Source: Botryotinia globosa
Taxonomy: Eukaryota > Ascomycota > Leotiomycetes > Helotiales > Sclerotiniaceae
Reading direction: 5' to 3'
Assembly: GCA_014898425.1 (NCBI GenBank)
Contig: RCSZ01000002.1
Span: forward strand, 2,542,001-2,606,000
DNA: 64,000 nucleotides
The notes below the pieces were generated by a model that searched no databases, was not told the origin of the DNA, and saw only the letters and a list, made by a program, of their open reading frames with translations. Shown piece after piece: positions 37,835-49,701 of this stretch (the first letter of the stretch is position 1; every line of letters starts with the position of its first letter). The position numbers were made by a program, and so were the translations under genes.

Positions 37835-39308
37835 ATGAGTGACGCTCAGGCAAATGAGGCCGAGAAGAATATCGAGATATGGAAGGTGAAAAAATTGATT
37901 AAGCGCCTCGAAGCTGCGCGTGGAAATGGAACCTCCATGATTTCTCTTATTATTCGTAAGATGTCACGTCGATATACTATCTACATACTTTCTAACATAT
38001 CATGTAGCGCCAAAGGATCAAGTCTCCCGTGCGGCGAAAATGTTGGCAGAAGAATACGTATGTTGCCGCTTTTTCTTGATATCTGCCTATTATATACTGA
38101 CTCAAACTTGGATATAGGGTACCGCATCGAACATCAAGTCTCGTGTGAATCGACAATCCGTCCTTTCTGCTATCACGTCTACCCAACAAACACTGAAGTT
38201 GTACAACAAAGTCCCGCCCAATGGATTGGTTGTTTACTGTGGTGAAATTTTAACATCGGAAGGAAAGGAAAGAAAGGTCAACATCGATTTCGAGCCCTTC
38301 AAGCCCATCAACACATCTCTCTACCTTTGCGACAATAAATTCCACACGGAAGCTCTTGCTGAATTGTTGGAGTCTGACCAGAAGTTCGGCTTCATCATCA
38401 TGGACGGAAATGGAGCCCTCTTCGGTACATTGAGTGGAAACACCAGAGACGTTGTTCACAAATTTTCTGTCGATTTGCCAAAGAAGCACGGACGTGGTGG
38501 ACAATCTGCTCTTCGTTTCGCGCGTCTTCGTGAGGAAAAGCGTCATAACTATGTCAGAAAGGTTGCCGAATTAGCTGTACAGAACTTCATTACAGCAGAT
38601 AAAGTCAACGTAGCTGGCATTATCTTGGCTGGCTCTGCCGACTTCAAGAACGATCTTAACCAGTCTGATTTGTTTGACAACCGTTTGGCTACAAAGGTTA
38701 TCAAAGTTGTTGATGTTTCGTATGGTGGTGAGAACGGATTCAATCAAGCTATTGAGCTTTCAGCCGAGACACTTAGCAATGTCAAATTCATCCAGGAGAA
38801 GAAGCTCATTGGAAAGTACTTCGAGGAGATCAGTCAAGACACAGGACGAGTTTGTTATGGTGTTGAGGATACTTTGAAGGCTCTGGAACTAGGTGCTGTT
38901 GAGGTCTTGATCGTTTTTGAGAACCTCGAGATCAACCGTTGGGTGTTGAAGGATAGCAATGGTGTCCAAACAATTCTTCATACTACCAAGCAATCCGAGG
39001 CCTCAAACCGAGAACAATTTATGGACAAGGAGACTGGCCAAGAAATGGAAGTCGTTTCCTCGGAATCGTTCTTGGAATGGATCGCCGAGAAGTACAGAGA
39101 TTTTGGAACAACATTAGAGTTTGTCTCGGACAGATCCAGTGAGGGTAACCAATTCGTTAAGGGCTTTGGTGGTATTGGTGGCCTCTTGCGCTACAAGGTC
39201 AATTTTGAACAATTGGCCGAAGTTGATGACGATGATGACTACTACGACGGTATGTTATAAGCATTCATATACAAAAATTACTTCAGAGACTAATATGATA
39301 TAGATTGA
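37835..39308 (+). CDS. SUP45: Eukaryotic translation termination factor eRF1 (SUP45)
   Basis: Recognises all three stop codons in the ribosomal A site and triggers peptide release together with eRF3. Exons 37835-37955, 38008-38057, 38118-39249 and 39304-39308; 435 residues, the normal size. Functional motifs: GTS at 32-34, TASNIKS at 59-65 and YLCDNKF at 126-132 (stop-codon decoding), then GRGGQ with GGQ at 184-186 (peptidyl-tRNA hydrolysis). An acidic tail ends DDDDDYYDD. The last coding exon contributes only AT plus the TGA stop; the intron before it (39250-39303, GTATGT...ATATAG) splits the final Asp codon. The frame continues open after the TGA into a possible readthrough extension and a 3'-UTR intron (separate entries), suggesting autoregulation. 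Confidence 0.98.
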
Positions 39309-39628
39309 CAGTTTGATGCCCTCGCATTGGGCGAGGAGCCAACTCCAGTCGAACCGTCAAGCCAAATTCTGTCACACCGCCCTCGTGCCGTGCAACAGAC
39401 GACCCAAGCGCAGCCGGCTTCCCCAGCTGGCTTGGGACTAAGAGGGAACACAGGGAATGCCCGTCCCAGCCCTCTCCGGTCCGTCATGACGGCTTCGTAA
39501 GTCGGAGAAACCATATTTCAGGTATGTGATCCATCGTTGATCTTTCTGTACCTTTTCTGACAAATTCGTGCAGAATATATGATTCCGTGAAAACTAGGCG
39601 ATACCCTGATGTTTCTCATGTGTGTTAA
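39309..39628 (+). promoter_or_regulatory. Candidate readthrough extension of eRF1 after UGA
   Basis: Directly after the UGA (39306-39308) the same frame stays open through 39309-39496. With the intron at 39497-39573 removed it continues to TAA at 39626-39628, adding 80 codons beyond the stop. The first part is GC-rich and reads like real protein: FDALALGEEPTPVEPSS, then Gln/Pro/Ala-rich segments. That is unlike the AT-rich 3' flanks elsewhere in the window. The context UGA-CAG-UUU partly matches the known readthrough context (stop followed by CAR YYA). If UGA is read through, the ribosome crosses the downstream exon junction before stopping. Translation of the extension is inferred, not shown. 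Confidence 0.6.
39497..39573 (+). promoter_or_regulatory. Candidate 3'-UTR intron of eRF1
   Basis: A 77-nt interval with strong signals: donor GTAAGT, branch CTGAC about 12 nt before the end, acceptor TGCAG. Its donor lies 188 nt after the normal stop, beyond the roughly 50-55 nt limit at which a downstream exon junction marks an mRNA for nonsense-mediated decay. If unspliced, the extended frame would stop at the TAA that overlaps the donor (39498-39500). Confidence 0.65.
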
Positions 39629-40228: not shown

Positions 40229-41374
40229 ATGCAGTCCAGAACCAACTCCTCTAGCACACCAGCTATCTCTTTCCTTGGGCCCATTTCTTCTTATACTCAT
40301 CAGGTACTTGATCTTCGTTTAATTCAGTGTCCATCGCCCTTCAATTGTCGACATTATGAGCAATATGCAATTCCAATGGGACTAACAGATGACTGTCACC
40401 CCCAGGCCGCTCTTGGACGCTTCGATAAAGAGAAATACGAGTACCAACCAGCCATTGGAATACCAGGTATTGCGATCTTCATATCATCGCTAACCCGTTG
40501 CTGATGGCGTACAGATGTTTTCGAGGCTGTTCAATCGGGCAAAGCAGAGTTAGGTGTTGTACCTTTTGAAAATTCTACAAATGGAGCTGTGATCTTTACC
40601 CTAGAACTCCTCGCAGACCGCCATTCCTTGTATAAAGATGTCACAATATGCGGCGAGGCCTATCTTGATGTTAGTCACTGTCTGTTAGGTTATGTTTCGA
40701 CGGCAGATTCTCCAGTAATGTCTGGCACTTGTACTCCTACCACGTCCACTCCTTCTCCTGTCAAACCGAAGACTACGCCGCTATCTAGTCTCAATCACAT
40801 TCAACGTATTTACACCCATCCACAGGCATACGGCCAATGCGAGGCATTTCTAGGAACATACTTAAAGGGAGTTGAGAGACTGGACGTCAGTTCCACAAGC
40901 AAGGCAGCCGAAATCGTCAAAGCAGATAAGACTGGTACAAGTGCAGCCATTGCTAGTTCGCTCGCAGCAGATATCCACACATTGGATATTCTGGCAAAAG
41001 GAATAGAGGATCGTGATGATAATACTACCAGATTTCTCATTTTGCGCAAAGGTGTAGATACATCTGCGACAAAGGTTGATGTTGCCGCCAAGTCGATGGT
41101 TACTTTCACTATTGATCATAGAACACCGGGTGCACTCGCAGATGTACTGGATTGCTTCAGGAGATACCAGGTCAATTTGACAAGTATTAACAGTCGCCCA
41201 ACGAAAATAGTTCCGTTCCAATACATTTTCTTCGTTGAGTTTGAGGGAAGTAAGCTGAGTGATTCAGAGGGAAAAGTAGCTGGGGCATTGGACAGCCTCG
41301 GGAAATATACTCAGGATTGGCACTGGCTTGGGAGCTGGGAAGATAAACTTGTGGATAGACAAAAGAAAACATAA
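40229..41374 (+). CDS. PHA2: Prephenate dehydratase (phenylalanine biosynthesis)
   Basis: Converts prephenate to phenylpyruvate, the last committed step to phenylalanine, in the cytosol. Exons 40229-40303, 40406-40466 and 40515-41374; 331 residues. The N-terminal catalytic domain begins ISFLGPISSYTHQAALGRF and includes VPFENSTNGAV. The catalytic TRF motif is at ~216-218 (NTTRFLILRKG). A C-terminal ACT domain (residues ~240-315) contains HRTPGALADVLDCFRRYQVNLTSINSRP, the phenylalanine-sensing region (usually ESRP, here NSRP), so feedback inhibition by phenylalanine is expected. All three introns or joins have consistent phase. The order of eRF1, this gene and the HTD2-like gene on one strand looks coincidental; fungal genes are not in operons. 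Confidence 0.96.
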
Positions 41375-45603: not shown

Positions 45604-48600
45604 ATGGCGCCCAAAGGTTCTCGGCGAAAGAGTTTAAGTCTCCTTTCCAGAGCATCATTTTCCAATCTCGCCCACATCAACACCGACATCAACCATGGCA
45701 ACACGAACGACAAGGAACAGAAGGATAAGAAGAAGCTGAGCAAAAGAGGTTCGATCTTTGGCAGTCTGACGCCTTCAATGTACGTCGATACAGAAAATAC
45801 AAGCCATAGTCCTACGAAAGCCGACGCCCACTCTCCCAAGCTGCGACCTCGTACACTGCAAAAAGGCAGACCAACTTCATTATTCGGCTCCTTGGGGAGA
45901 AGGTCCATGACCGATGTGGATGAGGATAAGGAGGTTACCGGCACAACTCCTGAATCTCCTGAAGAGGAGTATCACTATCTTGCCGCGGGGATTCTCAATG
46001 CGAGCAGTGCCGTTTCGATACTGCACCATGGCGAAGTCCAGACGACGACTTCGATGTTTCGAAAGAAAAAGGAATACCTGGTCCTGACGGATACACACTT
46101 GACACGATTCAAGAGCATGGCGCGAGCGATAGAGGCATTCCCAAATATACAACCGGCGCACTTGCGTCAATCTCATCGCCAGTCATCCACTGCATCGATA
46201 GGGTCGCTGCAAGAAGTACAGTCTCAAGCTTCGCATGCATCCACGGAGGGCGAAAATAGAATTCCTCTGGGTCAGGTTGTCACCGTCTACAAGATGGAGG
46301 ATGGGCGGCCATTTTTCACAACCGAGGTCGTGTTTCTAGACGAGGATTACCATGGAGTAGGATCCATTCAGCTCATGTTACATGACCCAAAGGATGCAGA
46401 TCTATGGTCCACTTCAATCAGAGCGGCTGCGCAGAAAGCCAGACTCATGATGCCGGAGCCATACCCCGAACGAGTTGTCCGATACCTGGTGCAGACCCTG
46501 GAGGGCGTTGATGACTACGATTCGAACCATTTTCAGGTATTCAGAGTTGTCAAACGAGCTCCATTGGCAAAGAGCGCGCGCTCCTCATCGGACGATCTTC
46601 AAAAACTTGGATCTTCAGTGTTCTATATGGTTATTGGTATAAATCGATTGCATCTGATACCCCTACCCGATTTTAGCCTGCCTTCCGGGGCCCTTTTTCA
46701 TCCAAAATCAAGTCGAAATTCGTACGGCCTTGTGTCCCTAGTTGCAATGAACGTGCAGTATTCTGATGATCGATTTGAGCTCGCATTCAGGTTAGTTTAG
46801 ATCTCCTCGTGTACTTCATGTTCGCCTTCTTGTGCAGTGTTCGTCGCGTGGTGTAGGAAATCCATGTGTGACACTTGACGGTTGCGAGTGCCATTGTCTG
46901 TCCAAGCATGGCAATTGCAGCCCCTTGTGTCTGGGATTGTTTCTATGTTCGCTTTGTGCTTTCATAAGAATCAGGTCTAAACGCCTACATGTATCTAGAT
47001 AGCCCTCATATCCAGTGATCGTATAACTTGGCATTAATTGCAAATGCAGAGATAGAGACTAATTCAAACGTAGAACACCACTTCAACAAGCCAAGATGCT
47101 CGAGTTGGCAGCTTCAGCCACACACGATATTGCGGTGGTCATCTTTCAAGCCATACAGTATCTCAAACCAGCATGGCTGGACTATAACTTCACGTTCAAC
47201 GGGCCCATGCGTCTATTGGACTCTGGCGATATCCCTCTGGTTCACGAAGAAGAGGAGTATGGGTGTTTTGATAGAACCTTGGTTGCTTATTGCATGGCCT
47301 ATAACGTAAGATACGGCGTGTTGGCTTGCGAAATTTATCTGGCTGACATAACTAGTGCAACCCCGTGAATATAAAATATGCAGTTGATTGGAACGTTGAG
47401 GATGCTCCAGAATTTCGTCTCTACCCTCCTTCCATGACGGCCAAGTATACGATTTACGAACTGCTTGCTATTTTGAGGTCTTTACGATATAACGAATCTT
47501 TTCGCTCAATTTCGTTTGCAGATATCGATCTTCATTGTATGCATGGGATTGTGGATTCCTACGGCATAGATCACGTAGCTTGGACTACTCGAGTAGGGAT
47601 CGCGATAGATACCTACTTCACCATGAAGCCACAGGATGGATCACTATTATATCAAGAAGTCCAAGCACTTGCTCTCAAGTCACTACAGCTTCGAAAGGTA
47701 GATTTCAGCAATGCTCTTCCCAGAAGAAGACCGCGAGACACTTTTGATGATGAAGGGGGTGTTCTACAGAAAGATCCGGGTTGTGAAATTACTGCAGCAT
47801 TGATGCCATTGTGCCGCGCACAATTGACCCATGTCAATTGGATTGTTCTGAACGGAATTGAGTTGGGAGAGACAGATCTTGATGCGATGATTCCTGCGCT
47901 GAACAATCCAAAAGCTGAGATTAGAGCGATCGAGTGCTCGCGCTGTGGACTTAGTGATCGAGGGATAATGCAACTCTTGACTCATTTGGAGCGACAAAAC
48001 CAAACACTAGAGTGCATCAACATATCTAACAACCCCGGGAGGATTCTTCTCGAAAGATTCCAAGTATCCATGAGTCGTTTCTCGCACGTTCGCAAGCTCG
48101 ACCTTTCCATGATCACTCGTACATCTGGTGATCAACCACTTTTTGTCCCTGAAGTTATGCTCTCTTGGAGATTGGAGGAGCTGATTTTGAATGGCATTCC
48201 TGTAAGTGTGCTACTACTCTTGTTTTGAAACTTTTGGCTGACTCGACAGGTAAACGATCAAACTTTGGACACCATTTCTGCCTATCTCACAAGTGATATG
48301 TCAGATCAACTTCGCACCTTACAGATGGACCAGTGCAATTTGAGTGGATCGCATGTTGCTCTTCTCATGAGAGCTATGACTCGAGTCGCTGGCCAACCTC
48401 GTGATTTGGAGCTTCACGTAAGTGCCAACCGACTTGAGAAGGGGATAAGTGATTTTGTGAAAGCTATTCAAGAAAATTACACGCCCACCAAACTCGTGGT
48501 TCGGATGATTGAATTTACCAAAGAGGACTACTTCAAGCGATTACTGGAAGCCCTGCGCACCAATACTACGATTCAGGTCCTGGATATTTCGAAAGCGTCC

Positions 48601-49701
48601 CTTCCATATGATGCAAGTCCGGAGACATGTGAAACCATGCAGAGAGTTTTCGCTGAGAACACCACACTTGAGGACTTGGATATTTCTGGAGAACAGGCAC
48701 ATCTGGAGGTCACTCGATTCGGAATAGGCTTGAATCAGGCACTGACCGGTCTCAAAAAGAACAATACTTTGAAATCTCTTCGTATAGAGTACCAAAACTT
48801 AGGTCTGGAAGGAGCGAACACCCTCTCCTCTGTTTTGGAAGAGAATAGGGGCTTGACTCATATCTTCTGTGAACACAACGATATCAATCTTCAAGGATTC
48901 ACCATACTCGTCAATGCTATTGCAAACAACCACACTGTTCTTGAAGTTCCCTATATGCGAGACGATCAAGATATCGCTATGAAACGAATGAGTGCCAGTA
49001 TGAGGGATACACGCCGTGCCACGAGCTCTTCGGGCCGCGAAAACCACCACGTAAAAAGTTCAGTGAAGCGAACGTTGAAAACCTTTGGGGTCGGGGTTGA
49101 GAAGCCTATAAAACTAGAATTGACACCACAAGATGTTGATCAAGTGGTAAAGGTCTTGGCTGAGAAGTGGAATACGGAGATTGGGAGATTGTCTATGTTC
49201 TTGGAAAGAAACAGAAACATAGCTATGGGCGTGGAGGGATACGATCCTGTTGAAATCATAGGCGAACATGCCATGCGTCCTACCACAGCCATGAGTGACC
49301 GAGGAATTTTAGAACAGGTTTTAAGCAACACGACGCCTAGGATTGAACTGGGAAATCCAGTCGAAATCACAAATGATCGATTTTCTGGCATGACGCCTTT
49401 AGCAGAGGTACTCAATCCTATGGAAATGGAAAACGAGAGGCCCGTGGATGAAATGGAGAATATTCAATTCAAACGTATACATTACAAACGCAGTAAGGAT
49501 GGAGGTCTACTGCCTGATTTGCCTTCTTTGGGCAGTGAAAGTATGTTTGGATTGGAGGAAAGAGAAGATACTACTCAACTTAAACCCAAACGCATATCTT
49601 ACAAACGCAGTAAGGATGGGGGCTTACTACCTGATTTGGGTCCGTTGGGTAATGAGAAGATGTTTGAGTTGGACAATGGGTTGTTTGAAATGGAATCTTG
49701 A
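45604..49701 (+). CDS. Large leucine-rich-repeat protein with N-terminal PH-like region
   Basis: Exons 45604-46790, 47074-47305, 47356-48201 and 48250-49701; 1238 residues. The basic, Ser-rich N terminus is followed by a PH-like segment (~120-270; ILNASSAVSILHHGEV, REYLVLTD-like KKKEYLVLTDTHLTRF). The second half carries degenerate leucine-rich repeats (for example LDISKASLPYDASPETCETM, LEDLDISGEQAHLE, LKSLRIEYQNLGLEGANTL). PH plus LRR recalls CARMIL-type actin regulators, but I do not recognise the gene, so function is unassigned. The C terminus holds two copies of a KRI.YKRSKDGGLLPDL motif, 39 codons apart. Exon 1 to 2 uses a longer intron (283 nt); a microexon inside it cannot be excluded. 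The exon 3 start (TAG acceptor at 47355) is chosen by phase and is less certain. Confidence 0.88.

Follow-up and report, generated by a model that had tools for sequence, protein, structure and literature searches.

Termination of protein synthesis depends on eRF1, and the eRF1 gene of Botryotinia globosa raises the question of whether the level of this factor could be set at the stop codon of its own mRNA. The gene lies in a stretch of 64,000 nt, referred to here as the window, and its UGA is followed by an in-frame open extension and by the signals of a short intron. An initial annotation of the locus had read this arrangement as a switch in which readthrough of the UGA protects the mRNA from nonsense-mediated decay (NMD). 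Here the parts of that proposal are examined in turn.

The eRF1 gene and its relatives

The gene occupies the following positions:

37835-39308, plus strand: eRF1 gene, with four coding exons (37835-37955, 38008-38057, 38118-39249 and 39304-39308)

Joined, the exons give a coding frame of 1308 nt (435 codons and the UGA) for a protein ending in YYDD, and they are separated by introns of 52, 60 and 54 nt (37956-38007, 38058-38117 and 39250-39303). The identity assigned initially holds: the protein carries the Pfam domains eRF1_1 (PF03463), eRF1_2 (PF03464) and eRF1_3 (PF03465) in that order, each over the cut-off, and the sequence from GTASN onwards hits eRF1 proteins of solved structure at E 5e-184. 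By eye, an alternative acceptor can be recognized 8 nt further on (CAG, 39309-39311), with which the protein would end in YYDV and the stop codon would be the UGA at 39314-39316. The same-strand downstream neighbour in the window (40505-41374) encodes a prephenate dehydratase, with a Pfam PDT domain and an ACT domain slightly below the cut-off.

No relatives were found among viral contigs and plasmids, and a search of genome contigs returned one distant eukaryotic contaminant (L049) and two archaeal sequences (L050 and L051). The first of these is a eukaryotic eRF1 of 68% identity within a Verrucomicrobiaceae MAG, in which, by eye, a TAA is directly followed by an in-frame TAG. The gene (L049:2800-4383) apparently bears introns and probably contaminates the MAG assembly.

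Genome and control samples

The genome in which the window lies comprises 45.7 Mb in 27 contigs. Control stops were the ends of mechanically called open reading frames (ORFs) of at least 200 amino acids, taken from the window and from fetched pieces of the genome; they are not curated gene ends, and some belong to antisense ORFs, chiefly in the GC comparison, or to ORFs that end in introns. Their number was 78 for the GC comparison, 58 for the intron pattern, 63 for the fold at the stop, and 65 for open codons and for the fold at +6 to +45, the differences arising from the flank required and from the later addition of L057 and L058. One of the 65 is the ORF of the third eRF1 exon (end at 39258-39260); 64 are left when it is removed, and the fold and CAR counts hold. 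Duplicate or foreign loci (L001, L003, L048 and L049-L051) were excluded throughout, and further ones in the composition, codon-score and donor-candidate runs.

Stop codon context and the open frame

The stop codon and the sequences that readthrough would translate are as follows:

39306-39308, plus strand: UGA stop codon of eRF1, followed by CAG UUU
39309-39500, plus strand: in-frame open extension of 63 codons, closed by the TAA at 39498-39500 if the RNA is unspliced or spliced from a donor at 39522
39574-39628, plus strand: region past the candidate acceptor, which with a donor at 39497 contributes 17 more in-frame codons and the TAA at 39626-39628

UGA-C and CAR contexts are leaky. Both are present at the eRF1 stop, where YYA is matched in part, so that the sequence is not a full CAR YYA context; a CAR directly 3′ of the stop was encountered in 1 of 64 control ORFs. 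The UGA with its CAGUUU, the 63 in-frame codons up to 39497, rich in GC and in Pro, Ala and Gln, and the in-phase TAA at 39626-39628, 52 nt beyond the junction of donor 39497, are all present as first described, and with that donor the tail would have 80 residues in all. The TAA at 39498-39500 sits within the GTAAGT of the same donor.

The further claim that this open frame is hard to explain by chance is not supported by shuffles that keep the composition of the extension: 63 open codons arose in 18% of them when mononucleotides were shuffled and in 36% when dinucleotides were, and an open run beyond the junction in 22%. At least 63 open codons also follow the stop in 6 of 65 control ORFs. 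On its own the frame thus carries little weight, and its openness, being explained by composition, was rejected as an argument for readthrough.

The oddity of the extension is its composition rather than its openness. Its GC content is 62.4% versus 40.0% in 322,600 sampled bases, the GC-richest 189 nt of the window begin within it at 39317, and a stretch of this length and GC content was seen in 0.085% of 313,576 sampled stretches and 3′ of the stop in 1 of 65 control ORFs. The coding statistics of the frame are weak: its codon score (frame 0) of -0.227, versus 0.05 +/- 0.15 for coding sequence, falls between coding and off-frame values. These data bear on the proposal that readthrough yields a functional C-terminal isoform of eRF1, whose Pro/Ala/Gln-rich tail of 63 or 80 residues would have a role of its own. 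Such an isoform, which would be compatible with a regulatory circuit, appears improbable; 63 sense codons of a composition unlike their surroundings (GC 62% versus 40%) and a score for frame 0 that is the highest of the six frames speak for it, and are set against a Pfam search of the extension that gave no match and a synonymous codon choice barely over that expected from composition (0.675 versus 0.640 +/- 0.030; 0.837 in eRF1).

Other identities for the stretch were also considered. A gene on the minus strand or in another frame is unsupported: two minus-strand frames and one other plus-strand frame gave no Pfam match, and frame scores were lower. No known RNA family was detected between 36500 and 41500 with an E value of 1 or lower, no tRNA within the window, and no copy of the extension in the genome other than its own. 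Readthrough adds peroxisomal tails to some fungal enzymes; this explanation was rejected by eye, as neither possible tail, one ending in MTAS and the other in SHVC, is SKL-like. Elsewhere in the window, the long ORFs 47356-48228 and 48229-49701 are separated by an in-frame TGA at 48226-48228. A 48-nt stretch at 48202-48249 with GTAAGT, GGCTGAC and CAG spans this TGA, which is therefore most likely part of an ordinary phase-preserving intron and not a readthrough site.

Predicted RNA fold at the stop codon

RNA folding predicts two nested elements at the stop:

39306-39359, plus strand: predicted RNA hairpin around the stop codon (z about -3.5)
39318-39325 with 39331-39339, plus strand: inner stem of the hairpin, 8 pairs, starting 9 nt past the UGA

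A 60-nt segment from 39304 has a predicted energy of -24.0 kcal/mol (z -3.5), a stability that none of 63 control ORF stops reached by z or by energy (minima -2.27 and -17.6 kcal/mol), and along the spliced mRNA the segment at the stop ranks first of 165 (z -3.66; runner-up -2.69). Random 60-mers (n=1499) had a z of -3.4 or lower in nine cases, an energy of -23.1 kcal/mol or lower in one, and both in none. From +6 to +45 after the stop the energy is -13.0 kcal/mol, as low a value occurring in none of 64 controls (minimum -9.2 among the full 65) and in 32 of 5000 random 40-mers. Over the 194 nt from 39304 the predicted energy is -76 kcal/mol (z -3.1 to -3.2); two of 240 random stretches had a z of -3.2 or lower, and none an energy that low.

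In the longer mRNA the predicted pairing probability is 0.90-0.93 for the inner stem and 0.39-0.45 for the outer helix, of which the UGA is part. With a UGA in the A site, a stem starting 9 nt downstream lies approximately at the ribosome entry edge. Taken by itself, the inner stem does not exceed GC-matched shuffles in strength (z -0.7 to 0.1 for 60-nt segments starting at 39312-39318), and neither 39309-39428 (z -0.55) nor 39420-39521 (z 0.13) stands out. The opposite strand folds equally strongly (z -3.45), so the fold may reflect a property of the DNA and not of the mRNA. On the 3′ side of the hairpin, at 39337-39379 of the window, lies a 20-nt direct repeat that is imperfect (75%, 23-nt spacing).

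Intron signals in the 3′ untranslated region

Two donors that share one acceptor define the candidate introns of the 3′ untranslated region (UTR), both recognized by their signals:

39497-39573, plus strand: candidate 3′-UTR intron of 77 nt, donor GTAAGT (9.66 bits), with CTGAC and TGCAG
39522-39573, plus strand: candidate 3′-UTR intron of 52 nt, donor CAG|GTATGT (9.50 bits), same acceptor

The first of these was recognized initially, and its GTAAGT at 39497, CTGAC and TGCAG ending at 39573 were found again, as was the distance of 188 nt between the UGA and the resulting junction. Donor scores come from a matrix of 29 donors of the same genome, hand-picked from 38 automatic candidates by dropping eight that looked false and one duplicate, and some of the 29 may themselves be false. 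Among the 29 training introns 59% are at most 60 nt long and 21% are 70-85 nt long, and the 52-nt candidate resembles the coding introns of eRF1 in length. With the second donor the junction would lie 213 nt from the UGA, and either distance exceeds about 50 nt.

The extension had been said to cross the junction in frame. This would be so with donor 39497; with the equally strong donor 39522, readthrough would stop at the TAA at 39498-39500, 21 nt upstream of the junction, and would not cross it. Either donor would nevertheless let readthrough clear the junction, since the stop lies past it or 21 nt before it.

A strict intron pattern occurs by chance in 2-3% of 300-nt sequences (23 of 1160 after shuffling and 67 of 2162 tiled from the genome, the tiles taking in real introns of coding regions), and it follows the stop in 4 of 58 control ORFs, one of them the ORF of eIF4A3. 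The pattern misses one of the three coding introns of eRF1 (37956-38007). A 3′-UTR intron of eRF1, as predicted from its signals, is well supported.

Intron signals shared with eIF4A3 and Y14

In Neurospora crassa, eIF4A3, Y14 and eRF1 are reportedly under the control of the exon junction complex (EJC) and NMD through introns in their 3′ UTRs, and eIF4A3 and Y14 were for this reason examined here. The strict pattern is present 3′ of the stops of all three genes: it begins 109 nt past the stop of eIF4A3 (GTGAGT, GCTAAC and TAG; L016:2718-2773) and 235 nt past that of Y14 (GTAAGT, ACTAAT and TTTAG; L035:2191-2249). Y14 was recognized by a 75%-identical exon, and L016 is what we take to be eIF4A3, as distinct from the eIF4A-like L020, on the basis of a motif and of the sequence known for eIF4A3. 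No intron pattern was found after the stop of the paralogue L020, within 400 nt of the Mago stop, or within 300, 300 and 243 nt of the ends of the UPF1 ORF (L047), the UPF2 piece (L057) and the UPF3 piece (L058), ends which may not be those of the proteins. Domains of UPF1, UPF2, UPF3 and Mago are encoded in the genome (Pfam, over the cut-off).

That the eRF1 locus holds no regulated feature, and that an intron-like pattern and an open frame arose by chance in a GC-rich patch of UTR, is very unlikely. The occurrence of the pattern after control stops and the ease with which composition yields an open frame speak for such a coincidence; against it stand the pattern in both of two comparison genes picked beforehand and a fold at the stop that was matched at none of the 63 controls. 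We consider it likely, from the signals in the sequence, that a spliced 3′-UTR intron marks the eRF1 mRNA for decay.

The open frame is a different matter, with 2 open codons after the stop in eIF4A3 and 12 in Y14, so that among the three genes, a small sample, eRF1, the termination factor itself, is alone in having a frame that extends to the junction. This speaks for a part of readthrough in the control of eRF1. In a rival account, the 3′-UTR intron drives EJC-dependent decay, as reported for Neurospora, without readthrough: feedback would arise since decay itself needs eRF1-dependent termination, and the frame would follow from the GC-rich, structured character of the UTR. We give this account a substantial chance, somewhat short of even. 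It draws on the sharing of the intron signals by two genes that lack a readthrough frame to the junction, on the openness obtained in 18-36% of composition shuffles and on the weak coding signal of the extension. Against it stand the UGA-CAG, the strongest stop-proximal fold among the sampled stops and a frame extending to the junction, of which the account has no need.

A possible autoregulatory circuit

In the circuit that combines decay with readthrough, a UGA read as a stop would leave the EJC in place 188 or 213 nt further on, at the splice junction, and the retained complex would mark the eRF1 mRNA for NMD. The UGA-CAG stop would be leaky, aided by the hairpin with its stable stem 9 nt downstream. 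When eRF1 is scarce, ribosomes would read through the open frame and terminate either beyond the junction or 21 nt short of it, stripping the EJC so that the mRNA is spared. Splicing, decay, readthrough and its dependence on eRF1 are steps that we infer from the features described above.

The two halves of this interpretation, as first put forward, fared differently. The designation of the mRNA as an NMD target is strengthened by a rare intron pattern that recurs in eIF4A3 and Y14 and by the domains of UPF1, UPF2, UPF3 and Mago; relief of decay by readthrough, which rests on the UGA-CAG, the predicted hairpin and the position at which the frame ends, is plausible. We lean slightly towards the full circuit, in which EJC-dependent decay of the eRF1 mRNA would be relieved by eRF1-sensitive readthrough at the UGA. 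If it operates, the level of eRF1 would give fungi a set point for readthrough that can be measured, and the 3′-UTR introns of eRF1, eIF4A3 and Y14 would share one explanation, in that each product joins the decay that limits it.

Comparison with known systems

Some viral readthrough signals consist of a leaky stop codon with a downstream stem-loop or pseudoknot. The eRF1 stop resembles them in a possibly leaky codon, a short spacer (9 nt) and a predicted stable downstream stem, and it differs in belonging to a cellular eRF1 gene and in having a structure that is a prediction.

The logic of the circuit is reportedly on record for plant eRF1-1, as is its intron part for eRF1 of Neurospora. Plant eRF1-1 is said to be governed by an autoregulatory circuit of readthrough and NMD, and the locus described here shares with it an eRF1 gene, a possibly leaky stop, a 3′ UTR expected to trigger NMD and a readthrough frame that may relieve it. 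In contrast to the plant circuit, the present one would operate in a fungus with a short 3′-UTR intron as its trigger, a hairpin is predicted around the stop, and decay and readthrough are predictions from sequence. Like the Neurospora crassa set, eRF1, eIF4A3 and Y14 carry 3′-UTR intron signals 109 to 235 nt past their stops; to the Neurospora-type intron the present locus may add the readthrough frame and the predicted stop-proximal hairpin.

It is a tentative and rather doubtful suggestion that the switch joins a leaky-stop sensor of the plant type to an EJC decay signal of the Neurospora type, with the hairpin setting the level of readthrough and the competing donors choosing a tail of 63 or 80 residues, which would amount to an eRF1 gauge contained in a single 3′ end. 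The hairpin at the stop and the competing donors are possibly what is new here. Were the circuit confirmed, one termination factor would be regulated along shared lines in plants and in filamentous fungi, through a leaky stop and an NMD signal, though with different parts.
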